From the IMG/VR virus record IMGVR_UViG_3300034956_000136, positions 1 to 21,453 of that record: 21,453 nucleotides of DNA, one strand, 5' to 3'. A model generated the notes under the pieces. That model made no database searches, was not told the origin of the DNA, and was given only the letters and a program-made list of their open reading frames with translations. The first letter of the stretch is position 1. Each line of letters opens with the position of its first letter. Position numbers and translations under genes: made by a program. This DNA is from a virus. Positions 3,056 through 7,741 of the stretch are shown here, piece after piece.

Positions 3056-3192
3056 TGACAGAGACAGAAAAGATTCAGAACGCAGGACTGCTGACAAGGC
3101 TAGAGCAATACTTCAAGACCGAGCACGGCAACACCTCACAAATCGCTGCTGAAATTGCAGAACTTAGAAACCTAATAACAAAAGACCTATGA
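3052..3192 (+). CDS. Hypothetical small helical protein, 46 aa
   Basis: ATG at 3052 overlaps the upstream stop. The 46-residue product begins MMTETEKIQNAG and ends AELRNLITKDL; it is helical and lacks recognisable motifs. Its stop overlaps the next start (ATGA at 3189-3192). The unbroken chain of 4-base overlaps on both sides is the main evidence that it is real. Confidence 0.55.
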   Translation: MMTETEKIQNAGLLTRLEQYFKTEHGNTSQIAAEIAELRNLITKDL

Positions 3193-3344
3193 GAAAGTTA
3201 ACTTACGAAGTACAATGGGATGGTTTTATAAGTCAAGAAAGATATACTCAAGACTTTGAAACAATAGACGAGGCTAGGATAGCACTAGCACTACACAATA
3301 AACGCAATGCTGTAATGAAAATACGATTCAATGACAGCGAGTGA
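3189..3344 (+). CDS. Hypothetical small protein, 51 aa
   Basis: ATG at 3189 lies in the stop of the preceding gene. The 51-residue product reads as a beta-alpha-beta unit: LTYEVQWDGF, then a helix FETIDEARIALALH, then AVMKIRFND. This layout is common in tiny phage proteins of unknown role. It overlaps the next gene by 14 bases. Confidence 0.55.
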   Translation: MRKLTYEVQWDGFISQERYTQDFETIDEARIALALHNKRNAVMKIRFNDSE

Positions 3345-3719: not shown

Positions 3720-4421
3720 ATGAAAATAACAGACGATTATATAGCAAAGTGGTTCCCACCTAACCGCAGATTCCTGCACTTCTGTGCAAAGTATTATGGA
3801 TACTCGTTCTACAGCGATGATGTTGTGGAGGAGGCTAACTTCATAGCGATTAAGAACGTGATGAGCTTGAAGCGTAGAGAGGTAGAGTTCGAAGGTGAGA
3901 AGCACATGGTTGGTACAGTGATGAGCACCTTTAGGTTTGCTATCCTCAATGCTTACAAAGTATTAGAGAGAGCTAAGAGATTAGATGTCCGGACTGAGAG
4001 CGAGGTAACCTACAGCAACGGAGATGATGAGTTCAATATGTACCTACAGAACGCAGTGTCTAACGACCTGCCTTATGATAATACAATTGAGATAATCAAA
4101 GAGTTTATGAGTGAGGAACTCAACGTAGTAGAGCGCGACATCATCAGGATGTATTACCTAGAGGATAAGACTAGGAACGAGATAGCTCTAGAGCTAGACA
4201 TCCATCCTAAAACAGTGAGGAACACCCAAGGTAGAGCGTTAACAAAACTAAAAAAATATATGTATGAAGTCACACACGTTACAAACAAAAAAGAAGTTAA
4301 GCCTAGAAATAGTAGAAAGACTGTGTCAGTCGTACCAAAAATCGTACGGAGTAAACCCGCTGTCACCAACAAAGCAAAGAGTAGTAGTCATTCCGAGGCA
4401 ATGTCTTTCCTTTATCCTTAA
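3720..4421 (+). CDS. Phage RNA polymerase sigma-like factor, 233 aa
   Basis: The C-terminal half carries a clear sigma region 4-type helix-turn-helix: ELNVVERDIIRMYYLED (about 133-149), NEIALELDIHPKTVRN (153-168) and GRALTKLKKYM (171-181), as in sigma-70/ECF factors. Residues about 14-90 (AIKNVMSLKRR, FRFAILNAYKVLERAKR) could be a diverged region 2, though the -10 binding residues are not obvious. It probably redirects the host polymerase to phage promoters. Residues 182-233 form a basic, Lys/Ser/Val-rich, probably disordered tail; exactly this part overlaps the next gene in another frame. A DNA-binding transcription factor without core binding is the alternative. A strong AT-rich leader with a palindrome precedes it. 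Confidence 0.7.
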   Translation: MKITDDYIAKWFPPNRRFLHFCAKYYGYSFYSDDVVEEANFIAIKNVMSLKRREVEFEGEKHMVGTVMSTFRFAILNAYKVLERAKRLDVRTESEVTYSNGDDEFNMYLQNAVSNDLPYDNTIEIIKEFMSEELNVVERDIIRMYYLEDKTRNEIALELDIHPKTVRNTQGRALTKLKKYMYEVTHVTNKKEVKPRNSRKTVSVVPKIVRSKPAVTNKAKSSSHSEAMSFLYP

Positions 4422-4761
4422 GAATAAATTTACCACTACCTACCAAGAGGTTGGTAGTTATCTCAATGTTAATCACGCAACGATTATACATGGTGAGAGA
4501 CAGGTGAAAGACAGGATGTCTGTACTAGACAAAGAGTTTGTCAGTGCTGTAAACAATTGGGCAACAATCTTTGAGAAGGTTATGCCTGATGACATTCGCA
4601 CAATGTGGTCCACACAGGACAGAATCATTGCCGTGCTAGAGACTACACTACTAAACACCGAGTCAGCTATTGCTGTGTTGGAAGGAGTGTTGGAAATATA
4701 CAGGGCAGACGTTGTCGAGCACGGTGAATCGGAGTATATTAAACCTAGAGAAAATAAGTAA
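4264..4761 (+). CDS. DnaA domain IV-like DNA-binding protein, 165 aa
   Basis: Residues about 13-85 match the C-terminal DNA-binding domain of the replication initiator DnaA: LSLEIVERLCQSYQ, then VVVIPRQCLSFILKNKF (compare DnaA PRQIAMYL), then the helix-turn-helix YQEVGSYLNVNHATIIHGER (compare the DnaA signature EIG..F..RDHTTV.HA). No AAA+ ATPase domain or Walker motif is present. Residues 86-165 are helical and unrecognised. It may bind DnaA-box-like sites in the phage origin, or compete with host DnaA. The ATG at 4264 is the only one before the domain and lies 158 bases inside the sigma-like gene. A second protein of the same type is at 6296. Confidence 0.75.
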   Translation: MKSHTLQTKKKLSLEIVERLCQSYQKSYGVNPLSPTKQRVVVIPRQCLSFILKNKFTTTYQEVGSYLNVNHATIIHGERQVKDRMSVLDKEFVSAVNNWATIFEKVMPDDIRTMWSTQDRIIAVLETTLLNTESAIAVLEGVLEIYRADVVEHGESEYIKPRENK

Positions 4762-4780: not shown

Positions 4781-5329
4781 ATGAGTGTACACAATTTCAA
4801 AACCACCAACATCAAAGGCAAGGCCTATGTAGAGGTGAACGAGCGTATCAAATACCTTCGCACACATCCTGACTATTCAGGTTGGTCATTGTCTTCAGAG
4901 ATTGTTCAGTTAGATGCTGACAGCTGTGTTATCAGAGCTGAAATACGTGATGACAATTGGGTCCTAAGAGCTACAGGATTCGCACAGGAGGACAAGTCGA
5001 GTAGCTACATTAACAAGACAAGTTATGTGGAGAACTGTGAGACGAGTGCTTGGGGACGTGCATTGGCTAATCTCGGTATTGGTATTGATACTTCGATTGC
5101 AAGTAGTAACGAAGTTACAATGGCTATCGCCAAGCAAGATGTCAAAAAAGGGGATAACCCTAGTCCTGCGGCTAAGGAGGAAGCTAAGATAAAAATGACT
5201 AGCGACATCAAGAGAAAGATGATAGAGGCTGTGAAGAACGGAGCGGCTGACAAAGTTAAGGTAGCCCTAGGTAAGTACGAGGTTACTGCTGACCAACGCA
5301 AAGAGATTCTCGGTGCTGAATTGGTCTAA
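4781..5329 (+). CDS. ERF/annealing-type recombination protein (putative), 182 aa
   Basis: The start at 4781 is chosen because it follows the AT-rich leader TTTTATAACT; the longer frame from 4670 would run inside the upstream gene. Conserved features are VNERIKYLRTHP, then SEIVQLD and VIRAEIRDDNWVLRATGFA, then NKTSYVENCETSAWGRALAN and GIGIDTSIASSNEV (about residues 80-113). The NKTS..EN.ETSA.GRAL..LGIG...IAS..EV pattern is shared by phage proteins that I associate with single-strand annealing (ERF/Rad52-like) functions. The exonuclease two genes downstream and the SSB-like gene support a role in DNA recombination and replication. The exact family needs a profile search. Confidence 0.55.
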   Translation: MSVHNFKTTNIKGKAYVEVNERIKYLRTHPDYSGWSLSSEIVQLDADSCVIRAEIRDDNWVLRATGFAQEDKSSSYINKTSYVENCETSAWGRALANLGIGIDTSIASSNEVTMAIAKQDVKKGDNPSPAAKEEAKIKMTSDIKRKMIEAVKNGAADKVKVALGKYEVTADQRKEILGAELV

Positions 5330-5348
5330 CGAACTAAAGGACTTCAAG

Positions 5349-5594
5349 ATGAGTGATACTGTGACTACGTTTGCAGCGTCACTTATCTCTGAGGTTGTTA
5401 GTCCCTCGATAAAGGACGAGGTAGTAGAAGTTCTTTATGAGGTAAATGATTATGAACTAGAGTTCCTACAAAGTTATACCATTCACCTGATTGATTTACT
5501 ATCAGGCTTGGAGAATGAAACCCCTACTGAAATAGAGGTTGATGACTTGGTAGACTACACTCTGCAACACATGGGAATAGATGTCCGTAATTGA
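5349..5594 (+). CDS. Hypothetical acidic protein, 81 aa
   Basis: I take the ATG at 5349 as the start: it has AAAGG 8 bases upstream (a rare Shine-Dalgarno-like site here), and it avoids overlap with the previous gene that the in-frame ATG at 5313 would cause. The 81-residue product is very acidic and helical, rich in Glu, Asp and Val, without recognisable motifs. It overlaps the exonuclease start by 14 bases, so it may partner or regulate that enzyme; this is inference from position. Confidence 0.6.
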   Translation: MSDTVTTFAASLISEVVSPSIKDEVVEVLYEVNDYELEFLQSYTIHLIDLLSGLENETPTEIEVDDLVDYTLQHMGIDVRN

Positions 5595-6339
5595 AAAGTT
5601 TAATGATGATGAGGCTTACTTCGCTGACAAGGAGTACCTCTCGAATAGTATGCTTAAGCTGCTAAGGCAGTCACCTACTAAGTTTCACTTGATGAGAAAA
5701 GGTAAGTGGTCCTACCCTAGTGCATCCTATTTTGACATTGGTACTGCGCTGCACGCGCTGTTCCTAGAGGGCAAGCAGGTAGCTGTTCCCTTCGAAGGAA
5801 GAAGAGGTACTACTGCTTACAAGGAAATGAAACTAGAGAATGAAGGTAAGTTAGTCATGCCGTCCAAAGATTATAATCTCGTGATGGGTATGTACGACAA
5901 GCTAATGAAACTAGATGAGGTCACTGACCTAATGGGCATTGACTTTAAAGCTGAGGTTCCGGCTGTTATGGAACACATAACTGAATCAGGTAATGTTATT
6001 AAACTCAAGGGCAAGGCTGATGCTTTAGTCTTTGATGGAGTTGAGACTTACTTGGTTGACCTTAAGACCTCAGCAAAATCCCTAGAGGATTGGAAGAAGG
6101 GCGCACCATGGATGATGTACAATCAACAAGCACACATCTACAAAACATTATTCGGTGTGGACAACTTCTACTTCCTAGTGATTGAGAAAGATTTCCCTTA
6201 CGAGGTAGGTATCTTCCGTGCAAGCGATGAGTTCCTAGCTAGAGGGGAGTGGGAGTTCAACAAATCTATTAACCTTTACGAAAAAACATTTCTAAATGGA
6301 GTATTCAATCCTTACTCAGCAAGAGTTGGGGAACTTTAA
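5581..6339 (+). CDS. RecE/Cas4-like PD-(D/E)XK exonuclease, 252 aa
   Basis: The protein shows the ordered motifs of the PDDEXK_1/exodeoxyribonuclease VIII-like family: LSNSMLKLLRQSPTKFHL near the N-terminus, GTALHALFLEG (about 54-64, His58), GKADALV with Asp147, VDLKT with Asp160 and Lys162 as the (D/E)xK pair, and NQQAHIY as the QxxxY motif (Gln183-Tyr187). It would degrade one strand of double-stranded DNA ends to expose single strands for annealing. It follows the annealing-type gene and precedes the SSB-like gene, the usual trio for phage recombination. Length is normal for the family. Its end overlaps the next gene by 44 bases. Confidence 0.85.
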   Translation: MSVIEKFNDDEAYFADKEYLSNSMLKLLRQSPTKFHLMRKGKWSYPSASYFDIGTALHALFLEGKQVAVPFEGRRGTTAYKEMKLENEGKLVMPSKDYNLVMGMYDKLMKLDEVTDLMGIDFKAEVPAVMEHITESGNVIKLKGKADALVFDGVETYLVDLKTSAKSLEDWKKGAPWMMYNQQAHIYKTLFGVDNFYFLVIEKDFPYEVGIFRASDEFLARGEWEFNKSINLYEKTFLNGVFNPYSARVGEL

Positions 6340-6724
6340 AAACCTAGCAGATGTAATTCTCTTATGCGCAGCTAGTGCAGGAGGAGTCAGCACAGCTGAC
6401 ATACTATCTAACAAGAGGACCAAGGAGATTACCACTGCTAGAGCCATTGCTATATGTGCAATGCACAACCAAGGACTGAGCCTTCGTGAGATAGGTAGGA
6501 TTTCAAACACGGACCCGAAGGGTGTCCATACCTACATACACTCTCATGATAATCGCATGGCCGACAGGCGTTATGAACTAGCGTACAACCGGGCGAACAA
6601 CTTTATGAAGGGATACTTCTCTTCAGATGCTAGCTTACATAGTGAGGTAGATGAATTAAAAGCTAAGTACGTTGACCTTTCAGGCAAGTACGACCACCTA
6701 AAAGAATTAATAACAAGTAACTAA
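6296..6724 (+). CDS. Second DnaA domain IV-like protein, 142 aa
   Basis: Residues about 18-90 again look like DnaA domain IV: ADVILLCAASAGGVSTADIL, then RAIAICAMHNQGLSLREIGRI and NTDPKGVHTYIHSHDNRM, where LREIG..... and V..YI.. follow the DnaA EIG..F..RDHTTV.HA helix-turn-helix. The usual Asp-His-Thr-Thr base-contact motif is changed to Asp-Pro-Lys-Gly, so the sequence recognised may differ. The C-terminal 50 residues form a probable coiled coil (DASLHSEVDELKAKYVD onward), useful for dimerisation. No ATPase domain. It overlaps the exonuclease by 44 bases. Confidence 0.65.
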   Translation: MEYSILTQQELGNFKNLADVILLCAASAGGVSTADILSNKRTKEITTARAIAICAMHNQGLSLREIGRISNTDPKGVHTYIHSHDNRMADRRYELAYNRANNFMKGYFSSDASLHSEVDELKAKYVDLSGKYDHLKELITSN

Positions 6725-6735
6725 ATTAAATTAAG

Positions 6736-6993
6736 ATGAGTCAAGACAAACAATTCGTAGCAAAGACAAGCGTAGTAACAACTAAGTTCGGTCAGATAGT
6801 AAAGATTGCATTAGGTCCTCAAGATTTTGAGGTTCTTCAGAACGCAAAGAACGACAAAGGTTGGGTCAACCTTGAGATGAAAGACAAGCGTGACGGAGGC
6901 AAGTACATCCAACTACAAGGAGAGTACAATCCACAAGGAGGTACTGCGGTTAAGGCTGCACCTGTCAACGACAGTGATGACCTACCTTTCTAA
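6736..6993 (+). CDS. Small single-strand DNA-binding-like protein, 85 aa
   Basis: The protein ends in NDSDDLPF, the acidic tip used by bacterial single-strand binding proteins to recruit partner enzymes. The body has short strands (TKFGQIVKIALGP, GWVNLEMKDK, KYIQLQGEYNPQGG) compatible with a minimal OB-like barrel, but at 85 residues it is shorter than typical SSB (about 110 residues of OB fold plus tail). It closes the annealing/exonuclease block and is followed by a strong hairpin at 7017. It probably coats single-stranded DNA or acts as an SSB mimic recruiting host factors. Confidence 0.65.
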   Translation: MSQDKQFVAKTSVVTTKFGQIVKIALGPQDFEVLQNAKNDKGWVNLEMKDKRDGGKYIQLQGEYNPQGGTAVKAAPVNDSDDLPF

Positions 6994-7016
6994 GGTATTA
7001 CGTAGGGCATAATGAG

Positions 7017-7043
7017 GAGGAGGGTACTGCGGAGTCCCTCCTC
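7017..7043 (+). terminator. GC-rich hairpin after the SSB-like gene
   Basis: GAGGAGGG (7017-7024) pairs with CCCTCCTC (7036-7043), and inside it ACT (7026-7028) pairs with AGT (7033-7035) around a GCGG tetraloop, with T7025 bulged. Only TTACTAT follows, so termination would be partial. It opens the gene-free, structure-rich stretch 6994-7300. Confidence 0.5.
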
Positions 7044-7051
7044 TTACTATA

Positions 7052-7140
7052 GGGGAGAACGGTGGTAGATAGATAGAGGCTTGGTAATTTAATGGTTTAT
7101 CTATACTGCAAGGAGGGTTCGAATCCCTCCCTCCCTACCA
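7052..7140 (+). other. tRNA-like element with canonical T-arm and encoded CCA
   Basis: GAGGG-TTCGAAT-CCCTC (7113-7129) is a perfect T-arm containing the B-box GGTTCGAATCC. It is followed by a 7-base acceptor strand, discriminator A7137 and CCA (7138-7140). GGGGAG (7052-7057) pairs with CTCCCT (7131-7136) as an acceptor helix, giving 86 bases plus CCA. The interior is not a normal cloverleaf: a 7-bp stem ATAGATA/TATCTAT (7069-7075 with 7098-7104) closes a 22-base loop, and CTGCAAG at 7106-7112, resembling a Cys (GCA) anticodon loop, has no 3' stem partner. It may be a degenerate tRNA, a tRNA mimic or a copied tRNA 3' end. Confidence 0.4.
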
Positions 7141-7201
7141 AGAGCAAGGTGGTTGTGCTAATATTATTAGTCTTTACTTGGGTAAGTATCCACCTTGCTT
7201 T
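7141..7201 (+). ncRNA. Predicted three-way-junction RNA
   Basis: AGCAAGGTGG (7143-7152) pairs perfectly with CCACCTTGCT (7190-7199); two further pairs extend it. Inside are two short hairpins, CTAAT-ATT-ATTAG (7158-7170) and TACTT-GGGT-AAGTA (7175-7188). No open frame is present. It lies directly after the CCA of the tRNA-like element. It does not match hammerhead or purine-riboswitch cores that I know. Confidence 0.45.
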
Positions 7202-7205
7202 AATC

Positions 7206-7279
7206 ATAGAGGGGAGCAGTTTTTTTTATAAACTAAATATAAAAAGCTTGTGGTTAGGTCTAGACTGACTCCCCTTTAT
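7206..7279 (+). ncRNA. Long imperfect stem upstream of the nuclease gene
   Basis: Bases 7206-7220 pair with 7264-7279 over 15 base pairs with one G-U pair and one bulged A7268. The 43-base loop contains a run of eight T (7220-7227) and a second hairpin TTTTTATA/TATAAAAA (7223-7230 with 7238-7245, loop AACTAAA). It ends 21 bases before the ATG at 7301, so it is probably the 5' leader of the next operon and could control its transcription or translation. Confidence 0.45.
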
Positions 7280-7300
7280 AACCTTTAACACCAAAGAGAG

Positions 7301-7741
7301 ATGAGTAAAACATTCGAAACAAAAAGAGATGTTGACTTTCAACTCAAGGCTATTCGGCTACTGATAAAAGACCGGGATGGTATTGAGTTCCAAGACCAAG
7401 GTCCACACGCAGCAGTTGATTACGTTGTTCATAAAGACAACACAGACATAGCAGCAGTTGAAATTAAGGGAGTACGTAAAGTGAAATCAGTTCATGACAA
7501 TCATTCACCTGTAGTAGGATTAAGAAAACTAGTAGACCTACAAGCATTCGCAAGGAAGATGAGAATACCTAATGCAATTTTGGTATGGGCATATGAAGAT
7601 GGAATTAAGTACACCACAATAAACAACCTCAAGGGAAAAATTTATTACGGAGGTAGACCGCCAAGGGATGGCTCCACTAATGACCAAGAGTTAATGTTTA
7701 AGGACACTAATACTAACTTTAAAATTAAAGAATATGTTTAG
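7301..7741 (+). CDS. PD-(D/E)XK nuclease-like protein, 146 aa
   Basis: Motifs of the PD-(D/E)XK nuclease fold are visible: Asp40 in AAVDYVV, then AAVEIKG with Glu54 and Lys56, then a basic loop and a long helix (GLRKLVDLQAFARKM) followed by NAILVWAYEDGIKY. The length and layout fit small VRR-NUC or Holliday-resolvase-like phage nucleases. It probably acts in DNA recombination, repair or host DNA breakdown; substrate is unknown. It starts after AAAGAGAG, which is purine-rich, and overlaps the next gene by 8 bases. It is the first gene after the structured leader at 7206-7279. Confidence 0.65.
   Translation: MSKTFETKRDVDFQLKAIRLLIKDRDGIEFQDQGPHAAVDYVVHKDNTDIAAVEIKGVRKVKSVHDNHSPVVGLRKLVDLQAFARKMRIPNAILVWAYEDGIKYTTINNLKGKIYYGGRPPRDGSTNDQELMFKDTNTNFKIKEYV

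Follow-up and report, generated by a model that had tools for sequence, protein, structure and literature searches.

Short phage genomes rarely devote as many as 300 bases to noncoding DNA, and a gap of 307 nt between two phage genes raises the question of what this space is kept for. The gap occupies positions 6994–7300 of the window, by which we mean the whole analysed stretch of 21,453 nt, an IMG/VR record (IMGVR_UViG_3300034956_000136). Among annotated sequences, the best relatives of the window's DnaB-like protein come mostly from phages of Flavobacterium and Riemerella, and those of its portal protein from Nonlabens phages, indicating that the host likely belongs to the Flavobacteria; the setting is, in our judgement, probably marine. 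A protein 83% identical to this DnaB-like protein is encoded on JABJFP010000307.1 (L088), which is filed in a Euryarchaeota MAG and is probably a wrongly binned phage contig.

Composition and stability of the gap

The gap and its neighbours comprise the following features:

6736..6993, plus strand: upstream gene, encoding an 85-aa protein called SSB-like in a preliminary description of the sequence
7015..7045, plus strand: T1, a strong G+C-rich hairpin 3′ of the upstream stop codon (fold z −3.85)
7050..7140, plus strand: module D, tRNA-like (fold z −2.16)
7143..7200, plus strand: module A, a three-way junction (fold z −3.37; covariance model R1, 85.7 bits)
7206..7282, plus strand: module B in its variant B1, a three-way junction (fold z −4.77; covariance model R2, 83.4 bits)
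7280..7303, plus strand: leader AACCTTTAACACCAAAGAGAGATG, linking module B to the start codon of the downstream gene
7301..7741, plus strand: downstream gene, PDDEXK_14 phage endonuclease family (PF24579, E 4.6e-7)

As a whole, the gap folds at −107.6 kcal/mol compared to −85.0 ± 5.4 kcal/mol in shuffles (0/100 as good) and is the most stable of 121 sliding 307-nt stretches of the plus arm (mean −70, sd 12). The preliminary description had reported four structures in these 307 bases, and all of them were found close to where it had placed them, in the layout T1-D-A-B with the z values given above. Its statement that this is the only long gap of the plus arm stands only if the small ORFs of 2269–2573 and 3056–3330 are real genes, which is plausible; both stretches, of about 300 nt each, are devoid of ORFs of 60 aa and hold chained smaller ones. 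It had also tied the gap to SSB-like and nuclease genes, and this is the setting here, the 85-aa protein giving no Pfam or PHROG match; in other phages, however, the modules occur in other gene contexts and the PDDEXK_14 nuclease gene is not a constant neighbour of the array, which argues against a leader dedicated to that gene. Coding by a 58-aa ORF overlapping the array (7092–7268) was rejected, as its reading frame would be broken by the length and compensatory changes of modules A and B. A scan for sigma-70 promoters, a type distinct from that of the Bacteroidota, recognised none in the gap.

The leader of ~22 nt also lies directly 5′ of many small ORFs in related phages (L004, L005, L009, L012, L014 and others), often several times per locus, and may serve these ORFs as a common region for translation start or link cassettes during recombination. 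Other recurring intergenic repeats, such as AAGTAAGGGTATAACCTTAC palindromes, were observed near the same site in L009, L012, L013 and L014. Elsewhere in the window, two small proteins (4264–4761 and 6296–6724) each match the C-terminal helix-turn-helix of DnaA (Bac_DnaA_C), one of them just under the curated cut-off, and the protein of 3720–4421 contains sigma-70 region 4 (E 1.7e-8) with a weak match to region 2; judged from these matches, the latter could be a phage sigma factor, one that perhaps directs transcription of the operon.

The window's copy of T1 has a weak T-tail and fails an intrinsic-terminator scan. Relatives lacking the modules show simple terminator-like hairpins at the T1 site, for example GGGGGG..CCCCCTTTTT; among the loci found as relatives of the upstream gene, L009–L015 and L017–L023 carry a simple G+C-rich hairpin there, usually with a T-run. 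At the same site of L016, beside a hairpin, a differently built tRNA-like element was seen (after 5228, about 5300–5420; GGGTAGG..AAGGTTCGAATCCTT..CCTACCC-ACTA). Its anticodon-like loop seems enlarged, it has a variable arm, and ARAGORN is silent on it.

Module D is composed of an acceptor-like stem (6 bp in the window, one of them G-U), a long middle hairpin with a bulged A and a T-arm (GGAGGG-TTCGAAT-CCCTCC), followed by A-CCA at 7137–7140. The element earlier placed at 7052–7140 is tRNA-like in its T-arm and CCA, with a stem that is acceptor-like but shorter than the 7 bp of a tRNA, and is not a tRNA: the T-arm loop agrees with TTCRANY (TTCGAAT in the window, TTCAACT in L046), but a D-stem is missing and the middle stem of 12–13 bp carries a loop of ~20 nt instead of a 7-nt anticodon loop. 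With default or intron settings, ARAGORN gave no credible tRNA in the window and its relatives, and D appeared as a low-threshold candidate only at -ps60/-ps80, relaxed settings that yield dozens of chance candidates (129 in the window at -ps60). D was therefore rejected as a tRNA. It resembles the tRNA-like domain of tmRNA in its acceptor stem and T-arm, its reduced D region and a long helix replacing the anticodon arm, but with about 90 nt it has no mRNA domain or tag, and as both ARAGORN and Rfam were without a tmRNA match this assignment was rejected as well. The homologue in L046 has a 7-bp acceptor but CTA in place of CCA, and stem substitutions in L046/L065 keep the pairing, a comparison of only two distinct homologous sequences. 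L070 and L046 are 99% identical in the 1.1 kb upstream, yet L070 is without D, indicating that gain or loss affects D as a whole. D is the rarest and least conserved module and the only one resembling an RNA class with known processing. Its T-arm pattern matched 22 stretches of viral contigs, with the core motif of module A present only in a contig identical to this phage.

Covariation and strand of modules A, B and C

Module A contains P1 of 10 bp (7143–7152/7190–7199), P2 around 7157–7172 and P3 (TACTT-GGGT-AAGTA), with the near-invariant core ATTAGTCTTTACTTGGGKAAGTA. The most conserved stretch common to the window and L007, used as the pattern TCTTTACTTGGGNAAGTA, matched 28 stretches of viral contigs, a few of which are chance matches to coding sequence, while extra matches to a looser pattern (L096–L100) were rejected as chance matches of coding type. 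The covariance model R1 detected one A per locus at 54–86 bits in 31 loci, including a second record of the array in the window, and also a degenerate A in L118. The preliminary description had proposed a check for compensatory changes in the gaps of related phages; such changes were looked for in modules A and B and found in both, which supports its suggestion that the space is kept for RNA. In A, 9 pairs with 38 cells changed on both sides were counted among 24 distinct rows, with 0/500 shuffles as good, and 97.9% of cells were paired compared to at most 55.8% in slid controls. P1 varies freely with compensation, and P3 and the junction are almost invariant, in part because most sequences were collected by the exact core pattern; variable P1 and fixed cores suggest that a fold or binding partner is selected rather than a transposon end. 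Seven contig records of 18–58 kb with A hold one copy each, and A was found neither in the contig records of nine other relatives nor, by a search with its motif, in 84,980 bacterial and archaeal genomes.

The last element, first described as a 15-bp imperfect stem, does contain a stem, but one of 12 bp with a single bulged A that closes a three-way junction. In B1, P1 reads CTG-A-CTCCCC around the bulged A, and the P2 loop AACTAAA and the P3 loop GTGGTT can pair (AACTA/TGGTT). Like B1, the second variant B2 has an AAYU/GGUU helix and a P1 with a bulged A; in B1 this helix is formed by kissing of the P2 and P3 loops and is intact in 9/9 sequences wherever both bases are present (98.7% paired in pair counts including it), and in B2 the two strands form a nested helix. 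For B2, 9 pairs with 23 cells changed on both sides and 96.3% pairing were obtained (0/500 shuffles). A structure descriptor (three-way junction, AAYU in the P2 loop, GGUU in the P3 loop) run over the collected viral loci returned only the known B1 copies and a third variant, the lone B-like module at the syntenic site of L008, a relative of the upstream gene. The B2 copy of L077 was found by R2 and missed by the seed motif. Most B2 copies end in a T-run; the Nonlabens phage P12024S, whose portal protein shows a distant relationship, gave neither an A nor a B match. The purine riboswitch aptamer resembles B in form, being a three-way junction with pairing between the loops of P2 and P3; B differs by its AAYU/GGUU loop pairing, the lack of an Rfam match and of any associated purine genes seen.

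Module C is absent from the window and adjoins A and B in relatives. Its long stem is accompanied by a CTAGGAGTAGG hairpin and a conserved strand similar to CGGACAG; the hairpin CUAGGAGUAG is among its invariant internal parts, and the module was detected by the covariance model R3 in 33 loci (50–88 bits). Its covariation is suggestive and weaker than that of A and B, with 8 cells in 3 pairs changed; the pair count was reached by 91/500 shuffles and the cell count by 0/500.

Where positions are paired, G-U cells are far more frequent than A-C cells, at 43:3 in A, 72:4 in B2, 22:0 in B1 and 31:0 in C (168 to 7 in total). As the other strand would carry mismatches at the G-U cells, this indicates that the conserved product is the plus-strand RNA. 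None of the modules reached the gathering score in Rfam 15, and a permissive search (E ≤ 5) gave unrelated chance hits only, the sole one inside the gap being a 17-nt match of the T-arm to a plastid 3′UTR model on the minus strand. Blastn of the gap and of another array against 50,697 phage records led to no real match, matches to Lak phages at E 0.3 being rejected as chance, and a literature search gave no description of modules A–D.

Distribution and exchange of the modules

Relatives were gathered by the upstream gene, among which L007 has a module array at the site, and then by patterns for A, B and C. Loci fetched by the B or C patterns also contain A (L073–L077), an independent sign that the modules travel together. 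Tallied by seed motifs, an approximate count that misses some divergent copies, nine combinations occur in 50 contigs (A-B1, C-A-B2, A-C-B2, C-A-B1, B2-A, C-B2, B2, A and C-A), not all of them independent, with near-identical phages such as L074–L076 included. Flanking genes are predominantly co-directional, upstream in 45/45 and downstream in 47/49 scorable cases. The modules occur next to the SSB-like gene and also, among other settings, beside a small HTH gene that itself follows an exonuclease gene. Lying upstream of the array, this HTH-like gene may belong to the same type as the Bac_DnaA_C-matching proteins of the window. The downstream genes vary between phages (nuclease, ParB-like, small hypotheticals) and none is constant, arguing against a gene-specific leader.

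When L058 and L048 were compared, the array was 95% identical and the other aligned DNA 73–84%. Such a difference fits exchange, strong constraint or both; the identity may reflect recent transfer, conservation and exchange of the array overlapping here. From these comparisons, the modules appear to be traded between viruses like cassettes, with their base pairing kept in dozens of related viruses. Conserved structure in the RNA of one strand, modularity, co-directional intergenic placement and a single A per contig record are the observed properties of the array.

Stand-alone RNAs or an element of the operon

The best reading of these properties is a cassette of undescribed phage noncoding RNAs organised like a phage tRNA cluster. 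We give a probability of about 50% to the proposal that the gap holds small structured noncoding RNA genes, transcribed with the plus-strand operon, processed and acting in trans as binders of host or phage factors. The modules, each folding alone and gained, lost or swapped as a whole, would be transcribed with the flanking replication operon. D, and possibly the long P1 stems, would probably be cut by host enzymes (RNase P at the acceptor/T-arm and, for long stems, RNase III), which would release stable RNAs of 58–90 nt. Their invariant parts, i.e. CUUUACUUGGGKAAGU in A, the paired AAYU/GGUU strands in B and the CUAGGAGUAG hairpin in C, would then be the sites that contact a protein or RNA of the host or phage, the modules most likely acting as decoys or modulators during infection. 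Phage tRNAs evade host defences (PMC10264068, PMC11555353), and their clusters resemble the array as short runs of small structured RNA genes at one place in the genome, co-directional with the genes and gained or lost as units; the acceptor and T-arm features of D add to this likeness. In contrast to such clusters, no module is a tRNA by ARAGORN default settings, and the folds of A, B and C are unrelated to tRNA. This closest likeness in layout is why stand-alone RNAs are preferred to a role in cis.

A cis-acting operon RNA is nevertheless the main rival and a serious one, which we regard as quite possible though less probable than trans action: the array could provide antitermination past the T1 hairpin, or be a processing or 3′-end stability element that keeps the upstream message separate from the downstream one. 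HK022 putRNA is a known case of a phage RNA with a cis effect on polymerase (PMC9378689), and put as well as Bacillus EAR share with the array a structured RNA in an operon, no dedicated downstream gene and one site, put-type sites likewise being single copy per operon. The array, whose cis effect is putative, adjoins terminator-like hairpins, as its modules come after one in the window, L046, L064 and L070, and relatives without modules retain only this hairpin. The modules are packed between stop and start codons of predominantly co-directional genes, and some of them end in T-runs that may serve transcription ends, e.g. A in L047 and L071. It is the neighbouring hairpins, the T-runs on several modules and the strict orientation that keep this rival serious. 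However, one would expect several copies per genome of a generic end or stability element and A occurs once, several different modules with invariant cores exceed the needs of a terminator, and B in L111 and L053 has no T-run. The absence of any Rfam match to described RNA families and the three exchangeable module types also set the array apart from put and EAR.

A 5′ leader that acts like a riboswitch, controlling the gene after it in response to a ligand, would agree with the aptamer-like form of compact three-way junctions with loop-loop pairing and with a last module ending about 20 nt 5′ of the start codon in the window, L058 and L049. We consider it unlikely, as the downstream genes vary as listed above, L063, L070 and L071 have no ORF starting close by, and the two or three tandem modules differ and are not repeats. 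The orphan RNAs manA, wcaG and PhotoRC-II (PMC2864571) are similar to the modules in being covarying and mainly from marine viral or metagenomic DNA, but they are mostly leaders of particular genes, whereas the modules form mixed tandems with no constant gene. Hairpins acting at the DNA level, or miniature mobile elements that spread among phage genomes, might explain the same modules in several gene contexts and array exchange between diverged phages; this is rather less probable still, given G-U pairs kept on one strand only, variable terminal stems with fixed internal cores (the reverse of a transposon), one A per contig record and a fixed orientation to the genes. The least probable explanation is a decayed tRNA cluster of functionless gene remnants, to which the acceptor-like stem, T-arm and CCA retained by D would point. 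The stems of the D homologue stay paired, and A, B and C have no tRNA features; given the strong covariation of A and B, for these two such a reading appears largely refuted.

Returning to stand-alone RNAs, a more far-reaching version is offered tentatively, as doubtful more than probable: an exchangeable RNA island of flavobacterial phages in marine settings, in which three or more new RNA families and tRNA mimics form single-copy arrays, and whose released small RNAs would inhibit or decoy host factors of defence, translation or transcription. If true, such an island would be an RNA counterpart of anti-defence gene islands. Covarying RNA modules swapped between viruses point to a selected function at the RNA level that protein-centred annotation has missed, and the covariance models and module combinations make both the trans and the cis reading testable. 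Acting in trans, the modules would be new RNA effectors of phage–host conflict; acting in cis, they would be new operon-control elements for Bacteroidota phages, whose transcription control is, to our knowledge, little known.
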